Positions 1 to 31,753 of a DNA stretch of 44,395 nucleotides are shown piece after piece. This stretch comes from Candidatus Angelobacter sp. Gp1-AA117. Lineage in GTDB: Bacteria > Acidobacteriota > Terriglobia > Terriglobales > Acidobacteriaceae. The notes beneath the pieces are model-generated. The model was not told the origin of the DNA and did not search any database. It saw only the letters and a list, made by a program, of their open reading frames with translations. The position numbers and the translations under genes were made by a program. Within the stretch, counting starts at the first letter, position 1; each line of letters starts with the position of its first letter. The stretch lies in contig QHVI01000064.1 of NCBI GenBank assembly GCA_003223515.1, positions 1 to 44,395 of the forward strand, read 5' to 3'.

Positions 1-659
1 AGAAAACCGTCAAAAGATGGTGAGGCCAACTGGCTCACCCGCGTGCCTTCACCAATGCCCAGGGCTTCGGCTTCCCAGCGGGCAAAATGATCCATCCCTT
101 TCAGCCGCCCCAGTATGGCTTTGGGCTTGCCCGTGGAACCGGAGGTGAAGTAGATCGAGCACGGATCATCCGGCTGGCTCTCGGTAGCCAATGCTTCTGC
201 ACTGCTCCATGCTGGCTCACTCACGCGCACGATTTCGAAACTGCTACCAGATGGGACCGGGCCACCATCAAGCACAATCACTTTTCCTGTAGTGATTATT
301 CCTGAAGTGATCTCCACCAGTTTTTCAACCAACCGCGAATCGCCGATGAAGAACTGTGGCTGCACTCCTTCCACCATGACTTGCAGACGTTTCAGCGGGA
401 AGGTTGGATCCAGCGGGCAGAAGACTGCTCCAGCTTTGAGCGTCCCAATAATGGCCATAATGACCTCGATTGGTTCACCGGCCAGAATGCCTACAATGAC
501 GCCTTTTGAAACACCCGCTCCGCGAAGCGCGCGCCCGATTCTGTCACTCCGCGCATCAAGCTCGCCATAAGTGATGCTTCTGCGGCCCGCATCCACAGCA
601 GTGGAGCCGGCAAGCCTGCTGGCTGTGCGGCTGAATAATTGATGAACACTCTCAAACAC
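1..659 (-). CDS. Nonribosomal peptide synthetase, N-terminal part of adenylation domain (runs off window)
   Basis: Minus-strand reading frame open from a GTG at 659 to the window edge (219 codons seen). GGAG lies about 10 nt before the GTG. The protein starts directly with an adenylation domain: VHQLFSRTA at the start, ITYGELDARSDRIGRALR (A1 region), LKAGAVFCPLDPTFPLKRL (A2), YFTSGSTGKPK (A3, P-loop-like, near residue 180) and ASPSFDGF (start of A4) at the cut. No condensation domain precedes it. The giant NRPS two genes upstream ends with a condensation domain, so the two proteins together appear to make one C-A module in trans. It is the third gene of the NRPS-asnB-NRPS run, 46 nt after asnB. 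Substrate specificity cannot be read because the pocket lies beyond the edge. NRPS identity is very likely; a stand-alone AMP ligase is the alternative. Confidence 0.9.
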   Translation of the reverse strand, partial: MFESVHQLFSRTASRLAGSTAVDAGRRSITYGELDARSDRIGRALRGAGVSKGVIVGILAGEPIEVIMAIIGTLKAGAVFCPLDPTFPLKRLQVMVEGVQPQFFIGDSRLVEKLVEITSGIITTGKVIVLDGGPVPSGSSFEIVRVSEPAWSSAEALATESQPDDPCSIYFTSGSTGKPKAILGRLKGMDHFARWEAEALGIGEGTRVSQLASPSFDGF

Positions 660-705: not shown

Positions 706-2574
706 TCAGTTCAGGGAAGGTAAATGGAACAAGTCTGTGAGCAGGCCGAAGGTAAGCACGACGATCAGCAGGTCGTCTTCCAGTGCCTGATTAATGGTGA
801 ACCCAGGCTGTGAGTATTTCGACTTCAGGAACTCAACTGTATCGGGATTGAAATACCCCTGTCTCTTGATTCGGTCATAGGAAAGCTGGTCATAAACCCA
901 TGCAATCTTCTGCTGCAGAAGCGAGGGCGTGCCAGGAGCAACAAATCCAAACTTCTCCCGCTCAATGATCTCTTTCGGGACCAGATCCTGTGCGACCTTT
1001 TTCAGTATGGCTTTCTCCACGAACCCATTGAGCTTCAGATCAGGAGGAATCTGGCGGCAAAACCCGACCAGGTCGATGTCTAGAAATGGATAGCGGGCCT
1101 CAATGGAGTTTGCCATCGCCATCCGATCACCGTGATCCGCAATCAGGTGGCCTGCCAGCCTGAGTTTAAAATCAAGATAAGAGCGCTTATGCAGTGGATG
1201 CCTGCCTTCCAGCCTCTCTTTATTCACCACCGGAAAATTCGAGCACTCGAACTCATCCATGCATTCGCTTACCTGTTCGGAGTAGAGCATGGATTTAGTC
1301 TCGCGAAAGGCATACTCATCTTTCTCATAACGCAGGTCTGGATCGCCCCATAGCTTCTCGCGAACTTCATCACCAAACACCGTATCCAGGTCAGTCTTGC
1401 GCGGCTCTGCCGCCCGTCGCTTATCGAATCGGTAACCGACATAGCCGGCGAACAGCTCATCTGATCCTTCACCATTCAGCACCACCGTGATGCCGCTTTC
1501 CCGCGTCTGTTGCGAGAGGGCCAATGATGCGGTGTTGTAGGTCTCTTTCAGCGGAGACTCAGCATGATAAATCACATCACTGAGGCGGGCGGCAATATCG
1601 GTCTCCTTAAATGGAATCTCATGATGAATGGAGTCCACCGCCCTCGACATCAACTGCTGGTACTTCGCCTCGCAAATTCGCCGGTCTGAAAAGCTGATTG
1701 AAAATGAATGCCGTTGAATATTTGGCGAAACCTGCCGGATCATTGACGCGATCATCGACGAATCAAGCCCGCCGCTCAAGAAAAATCCCACCGGCACGTC
1801 CGCCTGAAGGCGGTAACGCACTGACCGTGAGAACAACTCTTTCAATGTGTCCGCATGGTACTTTTCAGGGCGGCCATCACTAGCCTCAGATTCTTTCGGG
1901 TATTCAAGGTCCCAGTATTCGGCGACTTTTACGTCACCATTTTTTACGGTGATGTGGTGGCCCGGTGGCAGGCTCTGGATTCCTTTGAATACGGTCCGCG
2001 GACTGATAGCTCCTGGAAGAGTTAAAACCTGGTCCAGCCCGGTGAGATCCACCTCACGCGGCGCCAGCGGATGCTGCAGGATGGCCTTGATCTCTGAAGC
2101 GAAAATCAGCATGCCGCCTGCAATGGTGTAATACAGCGGACAAATTCCAAACTGGTCTCTCGCAAGAAAAGCCATTTGGGCCTTCAGATCGAAAATCGCA
2201 AAGGCAAACTGGCCGTTGATCTGGTTCAGGAATTCCGTGCCATGGTCTTCATAGAGATGAACAAGCACCTCAACATCTGTGCGGCTGCGGAAGGTGTGTC
2301 CGCGCGCCAGCAATTTTTCTTTCAATTCAGGGTAGTTGTAGATCTCGCCGTTACAAACCAGGACGAGCGATTGGTCTTCATTGAAAATAGGCTGATTCCC
2401 GGTGTGCAGGTCAATAATGCTGAGCCTGCGGAACGCCAGCCCGGCGTTGTCATTCATGAAGTATCCGCTGGAATCGGGTCCCCGGTGAATGATTGCGTCC
2501 GCCATTTTTTCCAGGATGTCTTTTTCGATCCGGCGCTGGTTGCGCAGATCAATGCATCCCGCGAGACCACACAT
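706..2574 (-). CDS. asnB: Asparagine synthetase (glutamine-hydrolysing), AsnB type, inside the NRPS operon
   Basis: 622 aa, the usual length for this family. Class II glutamine amidotransferase domain at residues 1-210: catalytic Cys2 (MCGLAGCID), HRGPDSSG, CNGEIYNY and SRTDVEV for glutamine binding. Synthetase domain from about 240, with the ATP pyrophosphatase loop FFLSGGLDSS and LNGEGSDELFAGY. The family transfers glutamine amide nitrogen to beta-aspartyl-AMP. The start is ATG because Cys2 must follow it; AGGAGAGAG lies just upstream. It begins 38 nt after the giant NRPS stop and ends 46 nt before the next NRPS start, so it is almost certainly co-transcribed. By inference it either supplies Asn as a monomer or amidates a carboxyl group of the peptide. 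No key residue looks lost. Confidence 0.93.
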   Translation of the reverse strand: MCGLAGCIDLRNQRRIEKDILEKMADAIIHRGPDSSGYFMNDNAGLAFRRLSIIDLHTGNQPIFNEDQSLVLVCNGEIYNYPELKEKLLARGHTFRSRTDVEVLVHLYEDHGTEFLNQINGQFAFAIFDLKAQMAFLARDQFGICPLYYTIAGGMLIFASEIKAILQHPLAPREVDLTGLDQVLTLPGAISPRTVFKGIQSLPPGHHITVKNGDVKVAEYWDLEYPKESEASDGRPEKYHADTLKELFSRSVRYRLQADVPVGFFLSGGLDSSMIASMIRQVSPNIQRHSFSISFSDRRICEAKYQQLMSRAVDSIHHEIPFKETDIAARLSDVIYHAESPLKETYNTASLALSQQTRESGITVVLNGEGSDELFAGYVGYRFDKRRAAEPRKTDLDTVFGDEVREKLWGDPDLRYEKDEYAFRETKSMLYSEQVSECMDEFECSNFPVVNKERLEGRHPLHKRSYLDFKLRLAGHLIADHGDRMAMANSIEARYPFLDIDLVGFCRQIPPDLKLNGFVEKAILKKVAQDLVPKEIIEREKFGFVAPGTPSLLQQKIAWVYDQLSYDRIKRQGYFNPDTVEFLKSKYSQPGFTINQALEDDLLIVVLTFGLLTDLFHLPSLN

Positions 2575-2612
2575 CTGTTTCTCTCTCCTGTATTGCTATT
2601 GGTTCGTTTGAG

Positions 2613-5600
2613 TCAGTAGACTTCCAGCCCCTCATTAAATGCGGCGATCAGATCGCCGCGCTCCTGCTGGGTGCTTGCCGAAAGTGAGGACAACGGCTGT
2701 TCCGGTGCCGAGGCCATTTCCAATAACAGGCGGTGAAGTTGCCCGGCCATCCGCTTGATGGTGGAGCGCAGGAACCTGCGTTCGTTATAGACCACTTTGA
2801 GAAGCCATTCTTTTCCGGGTACGACCAGGATCGTGAGCACGTAATTATTGCGCTCGATGTTCCTCATGGCTTCCAGTTGGATTCCCCGGCCAGGTGCAAG
2901 CAGTTCCGGATCGATCGGTACATTCTGGAAGACGACAACGCTCTCGAAGAGCGGCTGGCTTCTGGGCACCGGGCTCCATCCCTGAATGTGAACCAGCGGG
3001 CTGAATTCAAACTCGCGGGCCTCAGCTTGTTGCGCCTGCAGCTCTTTCAGCCAACCTAAGACTGAAGCCTCAGGGGCAATGCGGACCCGAACTGGCAGCG
3101 TGTTGAGGAACAGGCCGACCATAGCTTCCACACCTGGCAATCCCGGCGGACGCCCTGAAGCTACAGCACCGAAAACCACATCTTCCGAGCCGCTCCTGCG
3201 TGCCAGGTGCAGCGCCCATGCTCCCTGCACCAGTGAATTCGGCGTGAGCTGATTACTCGCCGCAAAGCTCTTCAAAGTATCTGTCTCGGCTTCGCTGAAC
3301 AGCAGGGTCTCTTCACGATACTGGGCTTCGAGTTCCGCCAATCCTATCGAGGCACGATCATCTCCAAGAGGAGTTGCCCTGGAAAAACCTTGCAGCGCTC
3401 CCTGCCAGTAAGCTCTCGCTCTGCTTTCGTCCTGGCGCTGCAGCCACTGGAGATAGCCCGCCGGCGAGACCGGCGGCGGCAGTTCCACTCGCGTATTGCT
3501 GCGCAGTCCTTCATAGCAGCTCAATGCTTCGCTGAAGATAAGGGGTATTGACCAGCCATCGAGCAGAATAAGGTGGCAGCTCCAGACCAGGTGGTATTTA
3601 TTTCTTCCCACATTGATCAGAGTCAGCCGCACCAATGGCGATTGAGAAATTTGAAAGCCCCGGTGGCGGTCAGATGTGAGCAGCCAATCGAGATTTTCTT
3701 CCTGCTCCTCAGGCGTCTGCGCCGACCATTCATGCTGCTGCCAGGGCAGGATCACATTTCTGAAGACGATCTGAAATGCCTCACCCTGCGAGGTCAGCAC
3801 AAAAGCGCTGCGCAAAATCTGGTGACGATCAACCACTCGCTGGAATGCCTGGAGCAAAGTGGCTGCATCCAGGTCGCCGTGGAATGTATAGACCTGCTGG
3901 TTCAGGTACATCCCGGCTCCCGGGGCATCCAGCACATGGAAGAGCATTCCCTGCTGCAGCGCGGTGAGAGGATAAATCTCGTCAATGTCTTCTTCGCGCC
4001 CGGCAATCACCAATTCGAGCTCTCTCTGACTGATCCTGATGTGGGGGAAATCCTCGGGCGCGCGCTTTTTCTGCCCTGCAGTTCTGGAAGCCACCACAGC
4101 GGCTTCCGCTGGAATTTGAATATCTTCAGCGACCGCAGCCAACGCTGCGAGCGTCTGATGCTGAAATACCTGCAGTGCAGAGAGCTTCAACCCGACACGC
4201 AGTGCGCGGGAAACAATCTGTATGCTCAGGAGTGTGACAAAGGCCGACGGCACCATGTACTCAGGCACACGGTCTCTCAAGTACGCAGCCAGTTCGCCGG
4301 CAGAAGGCGAGTCCTTATCCGGAACTACATAGGCGATCAGGCGTTTACTTGCTCCCGGCGATTCATGCGCTAGAACTACCGCTTCACGAACGCATTCATG
4401 TTGTTGCAGCACAGACTCGATCTCACCCAGTTCGATGCGAAAACCTCTGATCTTCACCTGATGATCGATCCGGCCTTTGTATTCGATCATGCCATCTGCG
4501 AGATACCGGCAAAGATCTCCGCTGCGGTACATACGCGCTCCAGCGCGTCCGGAGTACGGATCAGGAATGAAGCGGTCGGCGGTCAGTTCCGGACGCTGCC
4601 AATATCCGCGCCCCACGCCATCGCCCCCGATCAAGAGTTCTCCTGCAACTCCCACCGGGTTAGGCTCCAGAAATTTGTCGAGAATATAAAGTTCGGTGTT
4701 CGCGATGGGGCGTCCGATCGGAGGATCTCCAGGGAATCCGGTATCCACTGGTGCGGCGCTGGCGACTACCGTAGCTTCGGTAGGTCCATAGTGATTCACC
4801 AGGGTGAAATTGAAGGTTTTTTCTGTCCGGTGCAGGCGGTCGCCACCGGTGAGCAGGTACCGCAACGGCAACTCCGTTTTCAGGTCACTGATAGTCGCTT
4901 CAGCCAGCGGCGTTGGCAGAAAACAAATCGAGATCTCATGCATCTTAAGCCACTCCGCTGGAGCTTCTTCTATCTGTGTGGATGGCAGATGCAACGATGC
5001 GCCCGCGAAAAGGTAAGGCCAGATTTCCCAGGTCGCCGCATCAAATGCAAACCCCGCAAACTGGCTGGCCTTGTCCTCCGGCGTGACTCCGTATGTGCCG
5101 TTATGCCATGAAGCCAGATTCACCAGACTGCCGTGGCTGACCATCACGCCTTTGGGCAGACCCTGCGAGCCAGAGGTATAGATCACGTAAGCCAGATTAT
5201 CGCTGGTCGCGCCTGATGCAATTGGGTGTGTGCTCTCTCCATCGATCACACTGGATTGAGTATCAAGACAGATAATTTCTGCGGCGTGCTCCGGCAGCCT
5301 CTCAAGAGAGCGCTTGTCGCTGAGCAGCACCTTCACGCCTGCATCGTTAAGGACATAAGTCAACCGTTCACCAGGATAGCGGACATCCATGGGAAGGTAT
5401 GCGGCCCCGGCTTTCAGCACACTCACGAGCGCCACAAGCATTTCCGGGCAGCGTTCCATGCAGATGCCCACCAACTGCTCCGAACCAGTTCCCAGCTTCT
5501 GCAGATAGCGCGCCAATTGGTTGCTTCTTCGATCCAGCTCTTTATAAGTGAGGTAATTGCTACCGTATGCAACCGCGATCGCGTCAGGCGTCTGCTGCGC

Positions 5601-8600
5601 CTGGCGCGCAAACAGATCATGAACACATTCTCGATCAGGATAAAGCCGTGATGTGCAGTTCCACTCCTTCAATAATTGCCGCTTCTCAGCTTCGCAGAGC
5701 AACGGCATCTCGGAGATGCGCTGCTGTGGATCGCTGGCAATAGAACCAAGCAGGGATTGCAAGTGCGCAGCCATGCGCTCCGCAGTTCCCGGATTGAACA
5801 GGTCAGTGCTGTATTCGAGTTTTCCCTGCAATCCCTGTTCGCACTCTGTAAATTGCACCGTCAGGTCAAATTTCGCGGTTTGAGTTTCAATTTCTTCCAA
5901 CTCAAGGCGCACTTTCTGCAGTTCCATCTTTCCAAGGGGCGCATTCTGCAGCACCAGCATCACCTGGAACAAAGGACTGCGGCCCAGATCACGCGAGGCA
6001 TCCGTTTCTGCAGCTATTTTTTCGAACGGCACATCCTGGTTCGCATAAGCCTCCAGCGTCGTGCTCCGGACGTTCTGCAGCAATTCGATGAATATGGGAT
6101 CACCTGAAAGCTGTGTGCGCAGCACCAGAGTATTCACAAAACAGCCAATCAATGGCTCCTCTTCTACACGCTTGCGGTTAGCGATTACCGTCCCGACAGC
6201 AATATCGGGTTGACCGCTGTATCTGGCCAGAAGTATCTTCAAAGCACCGGCCAGTACCATGAACAAGGTGGCATCCTGCTGCTGTGCAAGTTCGTTCAAC
6301 AATGCAGCCGTGCTGCGCGGGACAGAAAACTCCAACGATGCGCCCCGCCCGCTCTGCACCGCAGGCCGCGGGCGGTCCAGCGGCAGATCAAGCAACCCGG
6401 TCATGCTGCCCAATTGTCTCTTCCAGTATTCGAATTGCGCCTGGACTGCTTCTTCTATCCACTGGCGCTGCCACACGGCAATATCGGCATACTGCACGCT
6501 GAGTTCAGGTCCATTTGCTGGAGTACCTGAGGAAAACGCCTCGTAGTTCGAAGCCAACTCTCTCATGAAAATTCCCAGCGACCATCCGTCAGAAACAATA
6601 TGGTGCATGACCGCAAGCAGCGCATATTCCTCTTCATCTTTCTGCATCACTGCTATGCGCAGCAGTGGGCTTTCCTGCAGATCAAATGGGCGCTGCGCTT
6701 CCGTTTTTGCCAGCTCTCGTGCATGCGTCTGCCGGTCTTGCGCCGCTAAATGCCGCAGATCCACGTGTCGAATGCACAAAGAGATTTCAGGATGCACTAC
6801 CTGTCGTGGCTGATCTTCAGCCTGGATAAAGGTTGTTCGCAGTACCTCATGCCTGCTCACAATCCCCCAAATACTTTGTTCGAGTGCGGCGATGTTCAAC
6901 CGTCCCCAGAAATGTGCGGCATAGGCAATGTTGTATGCAGGACTCTCCGGTGCAATCTGGTGCAAAAACCATAGGCGCTGTTGCGAGAAGGACAAGGGGA
7001 GGTCCTGCTCTCGTGAAACACGCTCAATACACCGAATTGGTGTGCTGGAGCTCAGAGCAATGGCTTGTTCCACCTTCCGGGAAAGTTCTTCAACAGTCGG
7101 CGACTCAAAGACCGCCCGCAGCGGCAGCTCTACGTCGAACCGGCTTGCGATCCGGGTGACGACCTGCGTGGTCTTCAATGAATGCCCACCCAGGTGGAAG
7201 AAGTTATCAGTTACGCTGATCTGCTCCACATTCAGAACGTCCATCCAGATAGCGGCGACCGCCTGCTCCATCGCGGTGCGCGGTTTTACAAATTCCTGAC
7301 TCTTTGCAGCGCTTTGATCCGGCGCCGGAAGAGCGCGGCGATCAATCTTTCCATTGCGGGTCAAGGGCATGGACATGAGCGGCACGAAAGCCTGCGGCAG
7401 CATGTAATGAGGCAGAAAGCGCTTCAATTTCTCGCGAAGCTCCGCGATGTCGAACTCTTCAGCCCGTTTCGGAACAACATAAGCGACAATCTGCTTGTCT
7501 CCGGATCGGTCTTCTCTGGCCACCACGACAGCTTCTTTTATGCCATCATGGTCCTTGAGCGCCGCTTCAATCTCACCCAGCTCAATGCGGAATCCCCTTA
7601 CTTTCACCTGATGGTCCAGGCGGCCGAGAAATTCAATTTCTCCATTGGCACGATGACGGGCAAGATCACCGGTTTTATAGAGGCGCGTCCCTGAATTCCC
7701 GCTGACAGAATCGGGAACAAATTTCTGTGCGGTCAGATCAGGCTGGTGCAGGTAGCCGCGTGCCAGACCTGCACCGCCGATGCACAATTCACCTGCGATT
7801 CCTGCCGGAAGCAGCAGGCCGCCATCACGCGCGATGTACACAGCCGAGTTAGCGATCGGACGGCCAATCGTCGGCTGGTTCTCGCCGGCCTTCTCTACCA
7901 GGGCATAAGTTGAATACGTGGTGTCCTCTGATGGGCCGTAAAGATTGAAGACTCTGCGGATATTGGGCTTCTTGTATGCTTCCTGTACGAGATCGCGCAG
8001 GAGCGGCTCGCCTGCGAGGTTAATGGTCGTAACTGAACCAGGAATGGCGCTGTTCCGCACCAGCTCCCATAGCGCCGACGGGACAGTATTGATCAGTGTG
8101 AGCGCACCAGCATACGGTGATTGCAACAGCTCCAATGCGTCCTGCACGACAAACACCGTACCGCCGCAGCTCAAGGGCACGAACAGCTCAAACACTGAAA
8201 GGTCGAAGCAGATCGAGGTGGAAAACAACACCACGTCCAGCTCACGGCGCTCATAAACCTCTTTGGCCCAATGCACTAGCGTGGCAGCGCTCCTGTGCTC
8301 AATCGCTACACCCTTCGGCCTGCCCGTAGACCCGGAGGTATAAATCACATACGCAAGATTTTGCTCGTGGACCACCGGGCAGCCCAATATTGCCGGGCTG
8401 GGTGACGTCTCGTCTGCTGAATTGATAAAGACTTTCGCTCCCTGATATTGCGGTACTACCGCACCCAGCTGTGGCTCAGTTATCAGGGTTTTTACTTTTG
8501 CATCTTCCAGGGTGAATGCAAGCCGTTCCTGGGGATAAGCAGGATCAAGAGGTACGTATACACCTCCGGTCTTGAGAATTCCCAGCATTCCCACGATCAT

Positions 8601-11600
8601 GGGAATTCCGCGTTCCAGCAGGATTCCGACCGGAACCTCTGCGCCAACTCCCAGACGCCTTAAGTCGTGTGCCAGATTTTCTGCCTGGCTGTTTAGCTGC
8701 CCGTATGTGAGGTGCTCGCTCCTGCATTGCACTGCAATTGCATCCGGCGTCTCTTCTGCCCGGCGCTCAAACAACTGGTGCAGGCAAATTCCGGCCGGAT
8801 AATCCTTCGCAGTTGCATTGAATTCGCCGAGCAGCTCTCGCTGTTCCGCTGGAGTAAGAATTGGCAGATCAGAAATCTGCATTTCCGGATGATAAACAAT
8901 CGATTCAGCCAGGACTTTGAAATGCTCCAGCATCCGGGTAATGGTTGCTGCTTCTAATAACTCAGTGTTGTAGTTCAGCGAAATCGCCAGCGTGTTGTTG
9001 ATTTCCGCTGCGCCCAGAGTAAGGTCGAACTGGGCCGCATGCTGGCGCAGTTTGATCGGCTCCAGCACCAGCCCGTCGAGATCGCATGGTGTCCCCTGTT
9101 CTCCGAGAGCAAAGGCCGCCAGAGATGCGTGGCTGGATTTCGGCACACTCTCAAAAGCGAACATGGTCTGAAATAAAGGCGTGCGGCCGGGATCGCGCTC
9201 AGGCTGTAAGCGGTCAACCAGCATCTCAAAGGGGTAGTCTTGGTGTTCGAACGCTCCCAATACTGTCTGCCGCACATTTGACAATAATCCATGAAATGTC
9301 TGGCCAGGATGAATCCGGCTGCGAACAACCACAGTATTCACAAAATATCCGGCAATCGATTCGAAGCCGGCGCGGCTGCGTCCCATTGTGGGATACCCTG
9401 TCAGAATCTCCGGCTGACCTGTGTACTTTTGCAACAGCACTTGGTACGCAGATAGTATGAGCGTGAAAAGCGTAGCGCCGTGATTGTGCGCCAGCTTCTT
9501 CAGGCCAGCCAGAACTTCCGGGCTGATCGTCATGCTTTCAGATGCTCCATGATAACTCTGCACAGCGGGCCGGGGATGGTCCGTGGCCAGATCAAGGACC
9601 GGCAGTTCTCCGGAGAGTTGCTGCTTCCAATACGACCAAAGCTGTTCGCCTTCACGTCCCGCCAGCATCTGCGCTTGCCATGCTACATAGTCGCGATAGC
9701 TCAGCTTCAACCTCGGCAACTTAGCATTTCTGCCGCTTGCTTCTGCGTGGTAAATCTCACCCAATTCCCTGAGAAGCACTGCCAACGACCACAAATCAAC
9801 AATGATGTGGTGTGCCACAAGCAGGAGCACCTGCTGCCCTGAATCATCTGCAAACCAGCGAACCCGGAAAAGCGGGGCTTGTTCCAACCGGAAGGGCTTC
9901 TGCGCTTCTTCTTCAATCGTCTGCTGTAACTTCTCTCCAGGCCATCCAGAGACATCTGCCTGCTGGAAATCGAGAGCGGCGCCATCTTCTATGACCTGCA
10001 CCAGAGCATCCTGACCCGATTCAAACCAGGCACGCAACTGAGAATGGCGGGCGGTAAGTTTTTGAAATGCCTGCTTCAGTGCTTCAACATCAATTGGTCC
10101 GTGAACGCGCGCCGCGCCGGCTACATTGTAGGCCGCGCTTTCCGGGGCCAACCTGTGCAGGAACCACAGGGCTGCCTGTCCCCGCGAAAGAGAAAATTGT
10201 TTCTGGCTGCTGCTAGACGTGATAGTGTCAGCAGGCACGTTGCCGCGAGCTCTGGTTAGCCCGAACACCTGCGCCGCAATCTCTGAAATGCTGCTGTCCG
10301 CCAGCAGCGTGGAAACAGGAAGCGATACTCCCAATGCAGCTTCAATGTTGTGCGCCAGTTCCAGTGCCGCCAGCGAGTCTGCTCCATAGCGGACGATTGG
10401 CTGTCCCATATCAATTTCTGCACCCTTGAGACCGAGTCGTGCAGCCAGTTGGGACGCAATCCACTCCGCTACCTGTTCGCGAGTTTCAGGAGTGGCAAGC
10501 TCGTGAACCTCGGCTGTCTCTCCTGCCTGCGACTGGAAAACCACCTGCAGAGCTGCGTTGTTGAATGCTTCGCGGATCGCGCGCCGCTGGATCTTTCCGC
10601 TGGACGTCTTCAATATGCTGCCCGGCTTAATCAGGCTTAGCGCGTACACTTGCAGCTCGTGTTTTTCTGCAACAGCCTGCCGGATTGTTTCAGCGACTGC
10701 CCTGAGGTCCTGCTGGCGGTGATTCCGCGCGACTTCCTGCACAATCACCAGTCTCTCTTCACCGGCCACATCCACCGAAAATGCGGCCACCTCACCTGCC
10801 CGCAAGGATGGATGGCAGCGCTCCACGGTGCGCTCTATATCCTGAGGATAATGGTTGCGACCGCGAATGATGATCAGGTCTTTCCAGCGGCCCGTAATAA
10901 AGAGCTGCCCCTTCGCAACCAATCCCAAATCTCCGGTGCGCAGATACGGACCATCATTCTTCAAAAGAAAGTTTTTAAATGTATGGCTGGATTCCTCCGG
11001 CCGGTTCCAGTAGCCCTGTGCCACACTCGGCCCTGCAACCCAGATCTCGCCAACCGTGCCTGGCTTGCAGGCAATCATCATGTTTGGATCTACGATTCGA
11101 ATGCGCTGATCCAGCCATTCCTTTCCGCAACTGACCAATTCGGTTGCGTTTTGACTTTGTGGCAAAGCCTCAATGGAATGATTGGACTGGAGGGAATTTT
11201 TTTCGAATGCGGTAACTACCGGCCCATTCTCCCTTGTCCCGCCTGCAACAAAGAGTGTGGCTTCCGCCAGCCCATAGCAGGGATAAAAGGCGCTGCGCCG
11301 GAAGCCACAGGCGGCAAACGCAGAAACGAAACGCTCAAGTGTTGCCGGCTGCACCGGTTCAGCTCCGTTGAAGGCCACTGCCCAACTGCTCAGGTCCAGT
11401 TTTTCGCGTTCTTCGCTGCGGATCTTGCGGACACAGAGATCGTAAGCGAAGTTAGGTCCGCCACTGGTCGTGGCCCGATACTGGCTGATGGTTTGAAGCC
11501 AGCTCAACGGCCTCTGCAGGAATGCCATGGGCGAAAGAAGAATGCAGCGGGCGCCCACATACAGCGGTTGCAGCACGTTGCCAATCAGCCCCATGTCATG

Positions 11601-12275
11601 GAACAAAGGGAGCCATCCGGCTATGATCGACTCGGCACTCTGCCCGAATGCCTCCTGAATCATCTTCTGATTGTGCAGCAGATTTCCATGGCTCACCATC
11701 ACGCCTTTTGGCTTTGCCGTGGAACCCGATGTGTACTGCAGAAACGCCAGTGTCTCGCCATTCACCACCGGCTCCCGCCATGCTTCAGCCAATTCGTTGC
11801 CAATGGTATCAACCGCTCCCCAACGCCTTCCTTCCAGGAGCATGTGATGATCGGCTCGGCTCTCGATTTGCGTCAGAATGGCAGAAGTCGTCAGCACAGT
11901 GAGCGGAGTTGCGTCTTGAATGATGGCTTCAAGACGGTCAAAGCCCCGATTCATCCGCGGAGGATACGCAGGTACCGCCACCACCCGTGCATACAGGCAG
12001 CCGAAAAATGCGGTAATGTAATCCAAGCCTGCCGTAAACAGCAACAGCACCCGGCCGTCTGTAGCACCCGCCTCTTGCAGCCACGCAGCCACAGCACGCG
12101 CCCTGCGGTCGAGTTCACCAAAACTGAGGTCCGTTTCCGGGTCTGTATCTTCCGCAAGAAATGTATAAATGTTCCGCTCCGGCTGTTCAGCCGCTCTGCC
12201 GCGGAGAAGCTCGACCAGATTGCTTGCCATCTGGCGGCTTACCGCAGGCCGGATTTTAAGAGTAGGAGCATTCAT
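2613..12275 (-). CDS. Giant lipopeptide NRPS: FAAL-ACP-C-A-PCP-C-A-(deleted PCP)-C
   Basis: 3220 aa from ATG 12275; an in-frame TTG at 12290 and an ATG at 12230 (MASNLVELLRGRA, where the family usually begins) are other starts, and none has a clear SD. Domains: fatty acyl-AMP ligase about 20-590 (YTSGSTAKPKG near 180); ACP with GADSL serine at 10374-10376; starter C domain with HHIIVDL; A1 about 1160-1650 with NGKIDR lysine at 7347-7349; PCP1 with GGHSL serine at 7179-7181; C2 with HHIVSDG; A2 about 2220-2682; a PCP2 stub; C3 about 2760-3215. Pocket residues read by alignment to GrsA are DLFNNALTYK for A1 (Ala-like from memory) and DAWFLGHVV for A2 (Leu-like). It should load a fatty acid and extend it with amino acids. 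Oddities: A2 runs from VPSAFVTL straight into LSIQIVSRA, losing A10 and the PCP2 serine, and C3 has HLILLDG. No thioesterase is present here. Confidence 0.95.
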   Translation of the reverse strand: MNAPTLKIRPAVSRQMASNLVELLRGRAAEQPERNIYTFLAEDTDPETDLSFGELDRRARAVAAWLQEAGATDGRVLLLFTAGLDYITAFFGCLYARVVAVPAYPPRMNRGFDRLEAIIQDATPLTVLTTSAILTQIESRADHHMLLEGRRWGAVDTIGNELAEAWREPVVNGETLAFLQYTSGSTAKPKGVMVSHGNLLHNQKMIQEAFGQSAESIIAGWLPLFHDMGLIGNVLQPLYVGARCILLSPMAFLQRPLSWLQTISQYRATTSGGPNFAYDLCVRKIRSEEREKLDLSSWAVAFNGAEPVQPATLERFVSAFAACGFRRSAFYPCYGLAEATLFVAGGTRENGPVVTAFEKNSLQSNHSIEALPQSQNATELVSCGKEWLDQRIRIVDPNMMIACKPGTVGEIWVAGPSVAQGYWNRPEESSHTFKNFLLKNDGPYLRTGDLGLVAKGQLFITGRWKDLIIIRGRNHYPQDIERTVERCHPSLRAGEVAAFSVDVAGEERLVIVQEVARNHRQQDLRAVAETIRQAVAEKHELQVYALSLIKPGSILKTSSGKIQRRAIREAFNNAALQVVFQSQAGETAEVHELATPETREQVAEWIASQLAARLGLKGAEIDMGQPIVRYGADSLAALELAHNIEAALGVSLPVSTLLADSSISEIAAQVFGLTRARGNVPADTITSSSSQKQFSLSRGQAALWFLHRLAPESAAYNVAGAARVHGPIDVEALKQAFQKLTARHSQLRAWFESGQDALVQVIEDGAALDFQQADVSGWPGEKLQQTIEEEAQKPFRLEQAPLFRVRWFADDSGQQVLLLVAHHIIVDLWSLAVLLRELGEIYHAEASGRNAKLPRLKLSYRDYVAWQAQMLAGREGEQLWSYWKQQLSGELPVLDLATDHPRPAVQSYHGASESMTISPEVLAGLKKLAHNHGATLFTLILSAYQVLLQKYTGQPEILTGYPTMGRSRAGFESIAGYFVNTVVVRSRIHPGQTFHGLLSNVRQTVLGAFEHQDYPFEMLVDRLQPERDPGRTPLFQTMFAFESVPKSSHASLAAFALGEQGTPCDLDGLVLEPIKLRQHAAQFDLTLGAAEINNTLAISLNYNTELLEAATITRMLEHFKVLAESIVYHPEMQISDLPILTPAEQRELLGEFNATAKDYPAGICLHQLFERRAEETPDAIAVQCRSEHLTYGQLNSQAENLAHDLRRLGVGAEVPVGILLERGIPMIVGMLGILKTGGVYVPLDPAYPQERLAFTLEDAKVKTLITEPQLGAVVPQYQGAKVFINSADETSPSPAILGCPVVHEQNLAYVIYTSGSTGRPKGVAIEHRSAATLVHWAKEVYERRELDVVLFSTSICFDLSVFELFVPLSCGGTVFVVQDALELLQSPYAGALTLINTVPSALWELVRNSAIPGSVTTINLAGEPLLRDLVQEAYKKPNIRRVFNLYGPSEDTTYSTYALVEKAGENQPTIGRPIANSAVYIARDGGLLLPAGIAGELCIGGAGLARGYLHQPDLTAQKFVPDSVSGNSGTRLYKTGDLARHRANGEIEFLGRLDHQVKVRGFRIELGEIEAALKDHDGIKEAVVVAREDRSGDKQIVAYVVPKRAEEFDIAELREKLKRFLPHYMLPQAFVPLMSMPLTRNGKIDRRALPAPDQSAAKSQEFVKPRTAMEQAVAAIWMDVLNVEQISVTDNFFHLGGHSLKTTQVVTRIASRFDVELPLRAVFESPTVEELSRKVEQAIALSSSTPIRCIERVSREQDLPLSFSQQRLWFLHQIAPESPAYNIAYAAHFWGRLNIAALEQSIWGIVSRHEVLRTTFIQAEDQPRQVVHPEISLCIRHVDLRHLAAQDRQTHARELAKTEAQRPFDLQESPLLRIAVMQKDEEEYALLAVMHHIVSDGWSLGIFMRELASNYEAFSSGTPANGPELSVQYADIAVWQRQWIEEAVQAQFEYWKRQLGSMTGLLDLPLDRPRPAVQSGRGASLEFSVPRSTAALLNELAQQQDATLFMVLAGALKILLARYSGQPDIAVGTVIANRKRVEEEPLIGCFVNTLVLRTQLSGDPIFIELLQNVRSTTLEAYANQDVPFEKIAAETDASRDLGRSPLFQVMLVLQNAPLGKMELQKVRLELEEIETQTAKFDLTVQFTECEQGLQGKLEYSTDLFNPGTAERMAAHLQSLLGSIASDPQQRISEMPLLCEAEKRQLLKEWNCTSRLYPDRECVHDLFARQAQQTPDAIAVAYGSNYLTYKELDRRSNQLARYLQKLGTGSEQLVGICMERCPEMLVALVSVLKAGAAYLPMDVRYPGERLTYVLNDAGVKVLLSDKRSLERLPEHAAEIICLDTQSSVIDGESTHPIASGATSDNLAYVIYTSGSQGLPKGVMVSHGSLVNLASWHNGTYGVTPEDKASQFAGFAFDAATWEIWPYLFAGASLHLPSTQIEEAPAEWLKMHEISICFLPTPLAEATISDLKTELPLRYLLTGGDRLHRTEKTFNFTLVNHYGPTEATVVASAAPVDTGFPGDPPIGRPIANTELYILDKFLEPNPVGVAGELLIGGDGVGRGYWQRPELTADRFIPDPYSGRAGARMYRSGDLCRYLADGMIEYKGRIDHQVKIRGFRIELGEIESVLQQHECVREAVVLAHESPGASKRLIAYVVPDKDSPSAGELAAYLRDRVPEYMVPSAFVTLLSIQIVSRALRVGLKLSALQVFQHQTLAALAAVAEDIQIPAEAAVVASRTAGQKKRAPEDFPHIRISQRELELVIAGREEDIDEIYPLTALQQGMLFHVLDAPGAGMYLNQQVYTFHGDLDAATLLQAFQRVVDRHQILRSAFVLTSQGEAFQIVFRNVILPWQQHEWSAQTPEEQEENLDWLLTSDRHRGFQISQSPLVRLTLINVGRNKYHLVWSCHLILLDGWSIPLIFSEALSCYEGLRSNTRVELPPPVSPAGYLQWLQRQDESRARAYWQGALQGFSRATPLGDDRASIGLAELEAQYREETLLFSEAETDTLKSFAASNQLTPNSLVQGAWALHLARRSGSEDVVFGAVASGRPPGLPGVEAMVGLFLNTLPVRVRIAPEASVLGWLKELQAQQAEAREFEFSPLVHIQGWSPVPRSQPLFESVVVFQNVPIDPELLAPGRGIQLEAMRNIERNNYVLTILVVPGKEWLLKVVYNERRFLRSTIKRMAGQLHRLLLEMASAPEQPLSSLSASTQQERGDLIAAFNEGLEVY

Positions 12276-12488
12276 ACAGATATATGCCAAATCAGAACAC
12301 GCGAATGTTGCCCGGTCAGGTTACGTAGCAGCAACTAAAGCTATCTCATCGACATGCTTTAGCGCATCGGTGGAAGATCGGGCCTTCGGCAGCTTACACG
12401 CCATGAATAGGGCTATAGGGCTTTAGAGTTGAATGGAACTGCCGCGCCAGCTTTACGGGATGAGCTGTAGCTGAATTGAAAAGAAAAA

Positions 12489-13146: not shown

Positions 13147-13746
13147 TTATGACTCGATAACCTGCAGATGCCCATGGCCTGAAAGCGTGGTCAGGTCAAC
13201 ATCGGCAATACACCGCACATCTTTGTAATTCAGCTTCAGAGTGCCTTCCAGGTGGACAGTGCCGACGCCCTTCGCAAAATCTGCTTTTTCCACCCGGACT
13301 GATTCCTGATCCAGCTTGATTCCGAGCTCCGTGCCGCCCCGTGTTCCGGTGAACTTGATATAAATATGGCCTTGCTGGATGCGCTTGTGGAACGCCTCGA
13401 CGCTCTTCTCCGGCCTGAGACTCACTTCTACGGATTGCTCTGGACGCGACAATCTTTTCAGCAAGTCATCTTCGGCAGGAACGATCCCAGCAGCGCTCGC
13501 CTGCTCACGTGGCATGGCATTGAATGGCGCAGCTCCTTCCATTTTCTTGCGCAGGCTGAGCGGCCTCATGTCCGTCCATACTTCGCGGATATGAGCAAGG
13601 CATTCCTCTTTCGGCCCGGATTTGCCCGCATCGTGCCAGCCCAAAGCATTGGCGCGGCCCTCCGGCCAGATCGAATACTGTTCTTCAGCATTGACCACAA
13701 CTTTGTAGGTACTGCTCTCTTCTGTGTTGCTGCTATGCAAACTCAA
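13147..13746 (-). CDS. MbtH-like NRPS accessory domain fused to an unknown C-terminal domain
   Basis: 199 aa, against about 70 aa for normal MbtH proteins. Residues about 12-70 match the MbtH signature: [40 protein letters not shown], including the invariant Trp residues. MbtH proteins bind A domains and aid their folding and activity, so the neighbouring A domains are the expected partners. After a linker of about 35 residues, residues about 105-199 form a predicted beta-rich domain ([51 protein letters not shown]) that I do not recognise. The start codon is TTG at 13746, supported by AAGGAGATCGCT immediately upstream; no better start keeps the MbtH domain. The gene lies 64 nt after the kinase-like gene and 43 nt before the ankyrin gene. 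Confidence 0.88.
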
Positions 13747-16682: not shown

Positions 16683-18785
16683 TCATGCGATGAATATAGC
16701 GTGGAACGTTGCTTTTCTGCCACAGCAGCCACCCGGTTTGCCGGAACCATGGATTTCCTGAAGCGACCTCACATTGACTTCATGCAGTTGTAGCGCTGCA
16801 ATGCCATCAGCCGCTGCCCAAGCCGCAGACATGGTTGTAATGGCCGGAATCCGGTTTGTTATCGTGGCCCGGCGAATCGCTTTTTCATCAAACCACGGCT
16901 CCTGGCCCTGAGGTGTATTGACCACAAGCTGGATGCGTCCACCTTTGATCAGGTCCACAACATGAGGACGGCCCTCCTGCACTTTGTAGATGCACTTAAC
17001 CTGCAAACCGTCCCGCTCCAGGCAGGCTGCTGTTCCCTGCGTGGCCACGATCCTGAATCCCAACTCCAGGAACCGGCGGGCGAGTTCCACCACGTCCCGC
17101 TTGTCGCGGTCATTTACGCTGACGAAGACCGTTCCGGTCAGTGGCAAGATTTGCCCGGCCGACAGTTGCGCTTTGGCAAAAGCCTCACCGAAAGTTTCCG
17201 CTGATCCCATTACTTCGCCTGTGGATTTCATCTCCGGGCCGAGGATCGTATCTACACCGGGAAACTTTGACCAGGGAAATACCGGCGATTTCACAAAGTA
17301 TCCCGCGCCCGTCGAAAGATCAGCACCTTGCGCGATATTCTCCGGCAGGAACTCGCGGAGCTTGCGTCCGCTCATCAGACGCGCTGCGATTTTTGCCAGG
17401 GGAACGCCGGTGGCTTTCGACACATAGGGTACTGTGCGTGACGCGCGCGGATTCACCTCAATCACAAACACTTTATGGTTCTGCACGGCAAACTGGATGT
17501 TCACTAATCCAATCACATTCAAAGCCCGTGCCAGCCGCACGGTGTAATCGCGGATTGTATTCAGTACCGTTTCCGGAAGATCAACCGCTGGCAAAACACA
17601 TGAAGAATCACCTGAGTGTATTCCTGCCTCCTCAATGTGTTGCATGATGCCCGCGATCACCACGTCTTCGCCGTCAGCGAGCGCATCCACGTCTACCTCA
17701 ATCGCGCTCTCCAGAAAATGGTCGATTAAGACAGGCCGCTCCTGCGAATATTCGACCGCTTCTTTCATGTACCTGACCACGCTGGCCTCTTCGTAAGCCA
17801 TGACCATGGCCCGGCCTCCGAGCACGTACGACGGCCGCACCAGCACCGGGTACCGCACCGTGCGTGCACCTGCAACAGCTTCCTCTACATTGGTGGCAAT
17901 CGCGCCTGCTGGTTGCGGAATGCTTAATTCCTCCAGCAGTTTGCCAAATCGCTTCCGGTCTTCCGCCAGATCAATCGATTCGGGAGAAGTGCCTATCACA
18001 GGCACACCCGCGGCCTTGAGAGCCAGGGCCAGGGTGAGTGGCGTCTGGCCGCCAAACTGCACGATGACTCCCATGCAGGCCCCTCTCTCGGCTTCATGCT
18101 TGTAGATGGCAAGCACATCTTCGAACGTGAGCGGCTCAAAATACAAGCGGTCGCTGGTGTCGTAATCGGTCGAAACAGTTTCAGGATTGCAGTTGACCAT
18201 GATGGTTTCATAACCGTCTTCGCGCAGCGCAAATGCCGCGTGACAGCAGCAATAGTCAAACTCAATCCCCTGCCCAATGCGGTTGGGTCCGCTTCCCAGG
18301 ATGATGATCTTCTTTTTGCTGGTGGGCGGAGCTTCATCCTCATCTTCATAGGTGGAATATAGATACGGTGTGAAGCTTTCGAACTCCGCCGCGCAGGTGT
18401 CCACCAATTTGTAAACCGAATGCAGTCCATGGCTGTTCCGCAGCCGCAGGATTTCCTGATCGGTCGTACTTAAGATCAGCCCGAGCCGCTCATCGGCGAC
18501 ACCCATACGTTTTGCTTTACGCAGCAATTCCGGTGGAACAGATGCGGCATCATGCGCTGCCAGTTCTGATGACAAATCGGCAATTTCTTTCAGTTGATAC
18601 AGGAACCATGGATCGATGCCGGTCATCTCATTTAATTCCCTCGGTGACATCCCTTGGGCCAGCGCATAGCGCAAATAATTAATACGTTCCGGATGAGGAG
18701 TCACCAGACGCTGGGTCAGGATAGAGGGTTCAATCTTCTCCGCACCTCTCCGTTTTCCAGATTCCAGGGATCGCAACCCCTTCAT
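16683..18785 (-). CDS. carB: Carbamoyl-phosphate synthase large subunit, C-terminal two thirds (split carB)
   Basis: 700 aa covering the oligomerisation region, the second ATP-grasp (carbamate kinase) half and the MGS-like allosteric domain: [62 protein letters not shown], then [17 protein letters not shown]. The ATG at 18785 overlaps the stop of the preceding half as ATGA. Adding one T in the T-run at 18798-18800 joins both halves into [18 protein letters not shown], the expected continuous CarB sequence of about 1100 aa. It is therefore most likely a frameshifted carB, either real or a sequence error; a naturally split CarB, as in some other lineages, is the alternative. Last gene of carAB. 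Confidence 0.93.
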
Positions 18786-19993
18786 GAAAGCTTCCTGAAA
18801 GTCCGTCCGATGGCCATGGCTTCGCCCACGGACTTCATCTGCGGGCCCAGGGTCTCATCAGCGCCGGGGAACTTCTCAAACTGCCACTTTGGAATCTTGA
18901 CCACCACGTAATCAATTGTGGGCTCAAAACAAGCCGGCGTCTTGCGGGTAATGTCATTCTGAATTTCGTCCAGGCGGTAACCTACTGCCAGCATCGCCGC
19001 AATCTTCGCAATCGGAAATCCAGTTGCTTTGGAGGCGAGGGCCGAAGAGCGCGATACCCGTGGGTTCATCTCAATGACTACCATGTGTCCGGTGTCGGGG
19101 TTTACGTCAAACTGAATGTTTGACCCTCCCGTTTCTACCCCAATTTCGCGAATAACCCGCATTGCGGCATCGCGCATGTGCTGGTATTCACGGTCTGAAA
19201 GGGTCTGTGCCGGCGCCACAGTGATGGAATCACCCGTATGCACTCCCATGGGATCGAAGTTCTCGATCGAGCAGACAATGATGACGTTGTCGGCTATGTC
19301 ACGCATTACCTCAAGTTCGTATTCCTTCCATCCCAGCACGGATTCCTCGATCAGGACTTCGTGCACCGGCGAGAGATCGAGTCCGCGGGCCACGATCTCC
19401 AGCAACTCTTCGCGGTTGTAGGCAATGCCTCCGCCCGTCCCACCCAGCGTGAACGAAGGGCGAATAATTACGGGAAATCCGATCTTCGCGGAAAACTCCA
19501 GGCCATCTTTGAGATTGTTGACCAGAGCAGAACGCGGAACATCAAGGCCGATTTTGAGCATCGCATCCTTGAAGAGCAGGCGGTCTTCTGCCATCTTAAT
19601 GGCGGGAAGCTGCGCCCCGATCAACTCCACGTTATACTTTTCCAGTACACCGCTGTCGGAAAGTTCCACCGCAAGATTGAGCGCTGTCTGCCCGCCTACT
19701 GTTGGCAGCAGCGCAAACTTGCCTCGGCTCCTTACCTCCATCATTTCCACTTCTCTGTGGATGATCTCCTCCAGGTAGGCAGACGTAAGCGGCTCAATAT
19801 AAGTGCGGTCCGCCATCTCCGGGTCCGTCATGATGGTGGCCGGGTTGGAATTACACAGCACCACCTCGTATCCTTCATTTCTCAAGGCCTTGCAGGCCTG
19901 TGTACCCGAGTAGTCAAATTCGGCAGACTGGCCAATCACAATAGGCCCGGAGCCAATGATCAATATTTTGGAAATGTCTTTACGGCGCGGCAT
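18782..19993 (-). CDS. carB: Carbamoyl-phosphate synthase large subunit, N-terminal third (split carB)
   Basis: 403 aa with the first ATP-grasp (carboxyphosphate) domain: [66 protein letters not shown]. The frame ends GRTFRKLS and stop, where homologues continue GRTFQE and into the second half. The next four bases ATGA are shared with the start of the C-terminal piece, so translational coupling is possible. ATG 19993 directly abuts the carA stop. CarAB makes carbamoyl phosphate from glutamine, bicarbonate and 2 ATP for pyrimidine and arginine synthesis. Confidence 0.94.
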
Positions 19994-21112
19994 TTAGTTC
20001 TTCCATTCCTTCATCATCTTCATGAAATCGTGAAACAGATAATGTGAGTCGTGCGGGCCTGGAGAGGCTTCCGGGTGATATTGCACGCTGAATAATGGCA
20101 TGCTTCGATGGCGCAGCCCTTCCAGAGTGCCGTCATTCAGGTCAATGTGCGTATTCATGACTTCAGAGTCCTTCAGAGAATCAGGGGCGACAGCAAAATT
20201 GTGGTTGTGGGCCGTGATCTCGATCTTGCCGCTCTCCATCTGTTTGACCGGATGATTGCCGCCGTGGTGGCCAAACTTGAGCTTATAAGTCTTTCCATGT
20301 AGGGCCAGGCCGATCAACTGGTGCCCCAGGCAAATGCCGAAGACCGGCACTCTTCCCATGAGCCCACGTATATTTTCCTGCGCGTAATTGCAAGGTTCAG
20401 GATCGCCGGGGCCATTTGAAAGGAACACTCCGTCAGGGGCCATTCTCAGCACATCTTCCGCACTGGTCATGGCTGGAACGACCGTCACGCGGCATCCTGC
20501 ATCCACCAGCATGCGCAGGATGTTCTGTTTGATCCCGAAATCATAGGCGACAACATGGCGGCCCGGTTGGCCGTCGATGACCGGAACTGGTTGAAATTGC
20601 GAGCCCGCTGTCCAGTCGTAACGGTGTCTTGTGGTAACGATTTTGGCCAGATCGGTTCCATCCATTTTGGGAATAGAGCGGGTCTTTGCAATCAGGATCT
20701 CCACGCTCGTATCCATTGACGAAATTACGCCGCGCATTACTCCTTTGGTGCGCAGGTGGCGCACCAGGGCGCGCGTGTCGATTTCAGAGATCACCGGGAC
20801 TCTGAATCTGTCCAGGTACTCGTCCGTGACCTGCTGCGAGCGCCAGTTCGAACTGATGCGTGAGAACTCGCGGACTACCAGTCCTTCAATATATGGATGG
20901 CTGGCTTCATTGTCTTCGAAATTGGTCCCATAATTTCCTATCTCGGGATTGGTGAGGACGACAATTTGTCCAGCGTAAGAAGGGTCAGTGAAGATTTCCT
21001 GGTATCCAGTCAGTGACGTGTTGAAAACCACTTCTCCGTAACATTCACCTTTGGCGCCGAAACCTTCGCCGCGGAAGATCTTTCCATCTTCCAGCGCAAG
21101 GACTGCCTGCAT
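19994..21112 (-). CDS. carA: Carbamoyl-phosphate synthase small subunit
   Basis: 372 aa, standard length. N-terminal CarA domain ([39 protein letters not shown]) and C-terminal class I glutamine amidotransferase with the nucleophile in FGICLGHQ and the His-Glu pair in VQYHPEA. It supplies ammonia from glutamine to CarB through the intersubunit tunnel. ATG 21112 is preceded by AGGAGCCCTA, a good SD. The stop TAA is immediately followed by the carB ATG, so the two are co-translated from one operon. Confidence 0.97.
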
Positions 21113-26713: not shown

Positions 26714-27095
26714 AAATCACATTGATATTTTGAAATGCGTAATTGACAATTCTAAATGCAGCAGTCACAGCACATCCGATTTGCCCCCTGGTGTGGCAAA
26801 GACATGCGCAACCATGAATCAGAATTTTCTTTCTTTGCCTTGAACTGCCCTTCACGTTGTGGTTGAGTTTTGCTTTTGGTTGCGGCTCCGCGTTGCGCTC
26901 TTTGCATTGCTAACATTCGAATTCTTCTCTGTTTGCGACGAATTCTCCCGCGCAGCCAAGGGCGCGTGCGGTCCAAAGGAGCAACACACCGCCAAATTCA
27001 ATACACATCAACTACTTTTGTACCTCTGCGTCCTTTGCGTCCTCTGCGGTTAAAAGGTTTTGGTTGTGGTTTCGCTGTGGTAAATGCACCAGGAC
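26714..27095. repeat. Intergenic interspersed word-repeat mosaic, copy 1
   Basis: Gene-free 382 nt. From about 26,855 to 27,080 it is built from words shared with 39,232-39,560: CATCAACTACTTTTG (27006-27020), CTGCGTCCTTTGCGTCC, CTGCGGTTAAAAGG, TTTTGGTTGTGG and TTTGCATTGCTAACA. It is non-coding; short open frames in it are Leu/Arg/Pro artefacts of the repeat. It lies downstream of ligD and upstream of the EamA gene. Confidence 0.8.
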
Positions 27096-30853: not shown

Positions 30854-31453
30854 TTATCCCTTCCACTCATACGCATCCGGCTGGGGCAATCCAATAAACG
30901 CCAGCACGCGGCAGGCAAACTGGTGGGCCATCTCATCCAACCCTGCCGGACGGTTGTAGAACGTGGGGATCAGCGGATAGATCGTCGCTCCGGCCAAGGC
31001 CGCCAGATCCATGTTGCGGATGTGAATGCGGTTCAGGGGCGTCTCGCGCGTACACAGCACCAGTGGACGCTTTTCTTTCAGGCAAACATCCGCAGCGCGA
31101 TCGAGCAAGTTTGAAGCCAAACCATTAGCAATACGTGCCAAAGTCCCCATGCTGCACGGCAGGATGATCATGGCACCTGCAGGGTACGATCCGCTCGCAA
31201 TGTTAGCGCCAATGTCATCGTTGTTCTGCTGCTGAATCTTTTTCGCCTTGCCACCCAGAATCTGCTGCACCAGGTTATTGCGTCCTTTGATCGAAAGTTC
31301 TTCGGCAAAGACCCGCAAGGCATTATCAGAGACGATGAAGTTGACGTGCTTGATGCGCTGGTCGCGCTCCGCCGCCAGCAACAGGGCGCGGGTAAACGCC
31401 GCTCCGCTAGCGCCGGTGGCGGCGATGGTAAGGATTTGCGAAGGCTCTGGCAT
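30854..31453 (-). CDS. ubiX: Flavin prenyltransferase UbiX
   Basis: 199 aa from ATG 31453 (MPEPSQILTIAATGASGA), matching the family length; the frame is open further upstream but adds 51 non-conserved residues. Flavin-binding ATGASGAAF near the start, IILPCSMGTLARIANGLASNLLDRAADVCLKEKRPLVLCTRETPLN in separate conserved blocks, and TFYNRP. It prenylates FMN to make prFMN, the cofactor of UbiD-type decarboxylases. No UbiD is in the window. Convergent with the Nudix gene. Confidence 0.93.
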   Translation of the reverse strand: MPEPSQILTIAATGASGAAFTRALLLAAERDQRIKHVNFIVSDNALRVFAEELSIKGRNNLVQQILGGKAKKIQQQNNDDIGANIASGSYPAGAMIILPCSMGTLARIANGLASNLLDRAADVCLKEKRPLVLCTRETPLNRIHIRNMDLAALAGATIYPLIPTFYNRPAGLDEMAHQFACRVLAFIGLPQPDAYEWKG

Positions 31454-31753
31454 GCACTCGTCACGACCTTTGACTCCGGAAAACCGAAGAAGCACAAGGT
31501 CAAAATCTGAAGACAGTATATAAGGGACAGTCGTCTCGACGCATTCACCCGAGTAACAGCTTTTCCGGCTCAAGGTCCTGGCTTCCATCTGGCTCCCATC
31601 ATTCACAGCACCTGCTGCCGGCAGAGAATTTGGCCCTAAAATTTATTTGACAATAGAATTCCGAAGAAATCCTCGGCCTGCCGTGCTTTGTCGCTTGTTC
31701 GAGCGGGTTCAGCATTGCTAACTTCTTTGCAGCCGCTATTGCGGAGCATGCTC

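Follow-up and report, generated by a model that had tools for sequence, protein, structure and literature searches.

The second module of the NRPS gene P0001, carried on the 44,395-nucleotide stretch of DNA analysed here (the window), has probably been cut short by a natural, frame-keeping deletion of about 195 bp, and the A2-PCP2-C3 segment in which the deletion lies would be catalytically retired, a reading that we hold with good confidence. Judged from its sequence, module 2 is very probably out of use, and most likely both the module and the following C3 have been retired, leaving an assembly line that yields a shorter product or none. If real, this would be an assembly line caught in the act of losing a station: the protein is still open but bears three separate lesions.

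Domain organization of P0001

P0001 is read from a TTG start codon at 12290 to a stop at 2613 on the minus strand, and no stop interrupts its 9.7 kb. Domains were placed with Pfam, with HMMs of our own and by motif, and the features that concern us are listed below.

1..659, minus strand: start of the next NRPS protein, which opens with A3 and runs off the end of the window
706..2574, minus strand: asparagine synthase of the AsnB type, lying between C3 and A3 (Pfam)
2613..12290, minus strand: NRPS gene P0001, 3225 aa, comprising a FAAL-like A domain, ACP, C1-A1-PCP1, C2-A2, a PCP2 remnant and C3
2679..3980, minus strand: C3, with the second His of HHxxxDG replaced by Leu (residue 2907, codon 3572-3570)
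4131..4229, minus strand: PCP2 remnant, model positions 42-76 of 78, serine absent (own HMMs)
4229..4230, minus strand: deletion junction, where 65 residues (195 bp) of the C190 paralogue have no counterpart
4230..5591, minus strand: A2, without A10 and with the P-loop Thr replaced by Gln (YTSGSQG, residue 2376)
5697..7007, minus strand: C2, HHIVSDG intact (own HMMs and motif)
7068..7298, minus strand: PCP1, LGGHSL intact (own HMMs and motif)
7326..8750, minus strand: A1, A10 motif NGKIDR intact (own HMMs and motif)
8856..10202, minus strand: C1 (own HMMs)
10266..10391, minus strand: ACP (partial HMM match)
10578..12137, minus strand: FAAL-like acyl-activating domain (Pfam AMP-binding and DIP2-like AMP domain; own HMMs)
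13147..13746, minus strand: ORF encoding an MbtH domain, upstream of P0001 (Pfam)

An acyl-activating domain and an ACP, followed by C, A and PCP domains in order, make P0001 a multimodular NRPS with an acyl start. We take the first domain to be of the FAAL kind, and from this start we infer an NRPS of the lipopeptide type. Two PP-binding stretches pass by themselves in Pfam, one fewer than expected from an ACP and two PCPs. C3 closes the protein at what resembles the linker to an A domain. GC3 in A2, the PCP2 remnant and C3 is 0.59-0.64, much like most of the gene, with PCP1 higher at 0.71.

The junction between A2 and PCP2

The preliminary description of this DNA had A2 running directly into PCP2 at 4229/4230, and this is what is found: codons 4232-4230 (L2687) and 4229-4227 (L2688) connect VPEYMVPSAFVTL with LSIQIVSRALRVGL, the frame being kept across the join and open over all 3225 residues, in a window that contains no N. 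With our own HMMs, the A2 match stops at model position 462 of 475, and PCP2 is covered only from 42 to 76 of 78.

The length of the missing piece was judged against a co-linear paralogue of 6450 aa on contig C190 of the source genome (G000; 6.48 Mb in 206 contigs, the window contig being C55). The two proteins align nearly end to end in MAFFT (3310 columns, 39.7% identity), with a single 65-residue gap at the join and with 49% identity (237/485) to its left and 41% (200/492) to its right. At the position of the gap the paralogue carries the A10 motif SGKPDR and GGDSI; the piece missing by comparison is the A10 lysine motif together with the carrier up to its serine. The earlier figure of 75-80 residues, or 230-250 bp, was therefore somewhat too large, the alignment giving 65 and 195. 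The distance from the P.YM.P motif to the PCP serine tells the same kind of story, with a survey median of 77 residues and about 10, by manual count, at the P0001 join.

The A10 motif carries the catalytic Lys of A domains. Both this Lys and the phosphopantetheine site of PCP2 had been said to be missing, and the alignment and the HMMs agree; in module 1, just as stated, the corresponding motifs are whole (NGKIDR at 1646 and LGGHSL at 1700). As assembled, P0001 presents the pattern of a naturally inactive module, in which the carrier serine or the catalytic residues of the A domain are gone while the gene stays open.

Further lesions in the A2-PCP2-C3 segment

The deletion is accompanied by changes on both of its sides, neither of them noticed in the preliminary description. 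The P-loop Thr of A domains belongs to the phosphate-binding loop, and among 159 A matches the residue was Thr in 138, Ser in five, and Leu, Met and Gln in one each, the Gln being that of P0001 A2 (the remaining 13 escaped the pattern). The second His of HHxxxDG is the catalytic one in C domains. An alignment of 21 related C domains, with that of the window among them, shows it in 19, the exceptions being a Tyr at locus L033 and the Leu of the window. In a wider count, it was found in 170 of 186 C matches of sufficient length, several of the 16 others being truncated or badly fitted by the search. The earlier statement that C3 remains is therefore right as to the presence of the domain, but its active site is altered.

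Neighbouring genes and relatives of C3

Downstream of P0001, module 3 is divided over two proteins with asnB in between. The same order of C3, asnB and A3 occurs on contig C58 of G001, a genome of the same genus, so that the arrangement is seen in two species (G000 and G001). The AsnB proteins of the two are 72.5% identical, the C3 domains 47% and the starts of A3 55.6% (216 aligned residues); the G001 contig starts within C3, and the comparison covers neither PCP2 nor the His motif of C3. The missing middle of the G001 cluster, with the PCP2 region, was sought in G001 and was not found assembled. An AsnB probe at E<=1e-150 recovered two of 300 family genomes (G000 and G001) and one of 396 phylum genomes (the source genome itself), both sets being samples from larger groups. 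A search of the literature for the split order of C, asnB and A led to no report that we recognised.

Among the matches listed from 41 genomes, none that covers C3 exceeded 48% identity, and the highest was that of G001. Seven further loci were 33-47% identical to A2-PCP2-C3, none of them orthologous to the whole of P0001. A match in G022 that seemed to pass through the junction proved to be an ordinary A-PCP with the A10 motif present. Most relatives of C3 in named genomes are preceded, as judged by eye, by E-type sequence, and two begin a protein. In the C190 paralogue, PCP2 passes directly to C3 with no E domain between, so the PCP2-to-C3 order of P0001 is not abnormal in itself.

The pace of change in C3 was compared by Tajima-type counts over its last ~290 residues, window versus G001, with four outgroups. 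Changes unique to the window and to G001 numbered 40:48, 36:50, 33:42 and 39:37, and C3 shows no acceleration relative to the G001 copy. This would mean that the deletion is recent, that a dead C3 is retained for structure, or that the C3 of G001 is also dead.

Contig C167 of the source genome possibly continues C55. Its ORFs for an NRPS and a carbamoyltransferase match G001:C255 along their length; they match G001:C58 about equally well, but over less length. At these loci (L052 on G001:C255 and L086 on G000:C167), a carbamoyltransferase-like gene, presumably NodU-like, adjoins related A-PCP-C-A-PCP genes, 77% identical. The window itself carries a second carA/carB copy at 16683-21112, with 76-77% DNA identity to C14:66821-72160. 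Here carB falls, as if by a frameshift, into ORFs of 403 and 700 residues with a four-base overlap, where on C14 it forms a single frame of 1121 residues; CarB is unbroken, at 1102-1167 residues, in G002, G003, G004, G006, G007, G014 and the other G000 copy. The carbamoyltransferase-like gene is possibly linked to this extra carAB copy.

Frame-keeping deletions in related NRPS genes

The genus of the source genome, of which nine genomes were seen, is rich in NRPS domains, and offers both many NRPS genes and related species to compare. An earlier survey had looked behind A8 alone and was biased to PCP losses; an HMM survey over A, PCP and C domains in the NRPS stretches of G000, G001, G003, G004, G006 and G040 added A and C losses. 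Counting losses of roughly 20 residues upward, it found 11 independent internal deletions, as follows.

In frame: C55, A2/PCP2 (P0001)
In frame: C190 ~126396, PCP core
In frame: C179 ~28845, A
In frame: C30 ~19850, A
In frame, counted once: G000:C120, G003:C15 and G006:C290, shared A
In frame: G003:C71, C, 32 residues
In frame: G003:C5, C, 28 residues
In frame: G006:C290 ~2353, A into PCP
Out of frame: C120 ~24391, PCP
Out of frame: G003:C70, C, 24 residues
Out of frame: G004:C8, C, 23 residues

Eight of the 11 keep the frame (P of at least 8/11 at 1/3 = 0.0088), and six of nine do so when two in-frame C-domain cases are taken away (P = 0.042), in what is a post hoc test on few events, limited to the NRPS stretches retrieved. 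Outside the 11 are frameshift or stop rows in G004:C28 and, twice, G006:C290, A domains without any PCP behind them (C80 and C179 ~31250-32668), and a lost A10 Lys in G003:C47. This last (L115, ~130416) has RLNRR for its A10 motif, with the PCP behind it intact. Decayed NRPS remnants also occur elsewhere in the genus, for example at G006:C290 ~2000-4700.

By a strict test, counting only A matches with room behind them, an A domain was followed by a normal PCP in 72 of 92 cases in G000, 26/35 in G003, 37/47 in G004, 19/24 in G006, 5/5 in G001 and 3/3 in G040. The flagged A matches were, by eye, mostly FAAL-like starts, A domains with methyltransferase-like insertions, or other enzymes. C-domain matches numbered 44 in G003, 47 in G004 and 28 in G006.

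One of these deletions is common to three species. The same internally deleted A domain, with ~79-95 residues absent and its motifs degenerate, is found at G000:C120 ~19025, G003:C15 ~5945 and G006:C290 ~25350, in NRPS ORFs that are 82-90% identical over 2092-2294 aligned columns; such deletions, then, do become fixed in the genus. For the three pairs, dN/dS of the dead A was 0.24, 0.30 and 0.25; by comparison, the preceding C gave 0.15-0.16, an intact A 0.11-0.15 and the PCP that follows 0.05-0.07. With these values (0.24-0.30), the shared dead A lends itself directly to the question of what keeps inactive NRPS domains in place. It is conceivable, though on balance unlikely, that the genus shortens its NRPS lines by frame-keeping deletions within domains, keeps the dead domains under purifying selection for structure or docking, and so retires modules not through decay but as a regular way of arriving at new peptides.

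Natural deletion or assembly error

The main alternative to a natural deletion is that a short-read assembler or scaffolder dropped ~195 bp of a conserved carrier-domain stretch from a gene that is in reality whole. Repeats in such clusters do cause misassemblies, according to the review PMC5484115, and MAGs of Candidatus Angelobacter, a genus resembling the source genus, are described in PMC9723581 as assembled with IDBA_UD. Moreover, the source genome shows three PCP-core losses (C55, C190 and C120), of which one is out of frame and not shared by orthologues. At C120 ~24391 (L083), 122 bp present in the G003 and G006 orthologues are missing, and the loss disrupts the reading frame of a gene that is conserved in other respects; this could mean recurrent assembly trouble with carrier domains, and no repeat was visible at the borders of the loss. 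The frameshift-like break in CarB on this contig, and the fact that the window and the next A domain end at base 1, would also fit an imperfect assembly. Against this, the reading frame is kept at the join, and a dropped segment would leave the point lesions of A2 and C3 unexplained; with these extra lesions, natural decay fits better. Collapse of a repeat at the join was also considered and rejected, as neither flank of the junction is closely duplicated in the G000 stretches examined (at best 29/32 bases on the left and 26/31 on the right). In the same stretches no repeated k-mer at the join is shared with another module, and 13-mers spanning the junction, sought elsewhere in ~0.5 Mb of G000 sequence, were not found. 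The apparent deletion could still come from a strain variant, or from an assembly error caused by a repeat within the missing piece. Taken together, we consider an assembly error improbable.

Nor does the contig appear to be foreign. A dispersed repeat of ~150-200 bp at ~26884-27084 of the window has 38 listed copies, 83-93% identical, spread over 32 other contigs of the source genome, connecting C55 to that genome, so that C55 very likely belongs to G000; the repeat gave no Rfam match at the gathering threshold. The preliminary description had left the choice between natural inactivation and a chimeric assembly. The former is favoured by the extra lesions and by the frame-keeping deletions of related NRPS genes; a chimera of two modules is unsupported, because both sides of the join are co-linear with one paralogue and no 13-mer across the join recurs in the G000 stretches examined.

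Proposed fate of module 2

An A2 without the A10 Lys, combined with a PCP2 without its phosphopantetheine site, means that module 2 should not load: to go by these motifs, A2-PCP2 should charge no residue and C3 should not condense. Predictions of the product that count modules would consequently add a residue that P0001 should be unable to load. In the course of events that we propose, the ~195-bp deletion would have taken the last part of A2 along with the first half of PCP2. A2 would be retired by the loss of its A10 Lys and its altered P-loop, PCP2 by the loss of its serine, and C3 by the loss of its second His. The chain would then stall as acyl-aminoacyl-PCP1, and the line might be non-productive or release a truncated product. 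Alternatively, C2, whose motif is intact, may condense directly with the residue on the next protein, in which case the dead A2-C3 tail would be a linker or docking surface only.

Retirement of module 2 could accordingly take either of two forms. In one, the lesions are the early pseudogene decay of a dying cluster that makes no product, a reading that we entertain tentatively. Three lesions within one segment and the decayed NRPS remnants of the genus point this way, but no stop has arisen over 9.7 kb, asnB and the split order of C3, asnB and A3 are also found in G001, and a free pseudogene would be expected to evolve faster than C3 does relative to the G001 copy. In the other form, which strikes us as rather doubtful, the line still works with module 2 skipped, the peptide is one residue shorter, and the dead tail is kept as a scaffold or for docking. 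The open frame of 3225 aa, the lack of acceleration in C3 and the other dead A domain under purifying selection in the genus are all consistent with it, as is the natural precedent of an inactive and skipped module 4 in the myxochromide S synthetase (PMC5984369). Deletion of T6 in the plipastatin synthetase, in contrast, gave no product (PMC5984369), and transfer past a C3 without its second His would have to use C2 and a partner on another protein. By analogy, product loss or truncation seems somewhat more likely than clean skipping, because the carrier deletions in plipastatin abolished or truncated the product.

Rescue in trans, with another A domain and carrier working with C3, appears very improbable. 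A-like domains are plentiful in the genome (half an A domain gave 110 matches), and the PCP behind a dead A elsewhere is strongly conserved, but here the PCP2 serine for loading is absent, as is the second His of C3. Hence, where the module had been called dead, skipped or rescued in trans, the expectation of no loading stands, but skipping by way of C3 and rescue in trans have become less likely, because the second His of C3 is Leu.

Comparison with known systems

To go by its sequence, P0001 joins the known inactive natural NRPS modules, with a set of lesions that is unusual. A natural in-frame deletion of the A10 and PCP kind was sought in the open-licence literature, and none was recognised. 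The co-linear paralogue, the NRPS on G000:C190, has the same domain order as P0001 by our own HMMs and a whole A2-PCP2-C3; its own loss is in module 3 (L038, ~126396), where the PCP core is absent, in frame, before what by eye appears to be an E domain.

Loss of an internal carrier or A domain from an otherwise kept line has been engineered in the plipastatin synthetase through deletions of T6, T7, A6 and A7 (PMC5984369). As given there, deletion of T6 left no product and deletion of T7 a truncated one, and the authors' proposal for deletion of A6 is skipping. The loss in P0001 differs in that it was found in a genome, has its borders inside domains, and removes A10 and PCP sequence together. 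Finally, module 4 of the myxochromide S synthetase, as described in PMC5984369, resembles module 2 of P0001 in being a natural module that stays in the gene but is unused. In P0001, however, parts of the A and PCP domains are physically gone, and the next C domain, which in skipping of the myxochromide type would need an intact HHxxxDG to accept from the earlier carrier, has a Leu for its second His.
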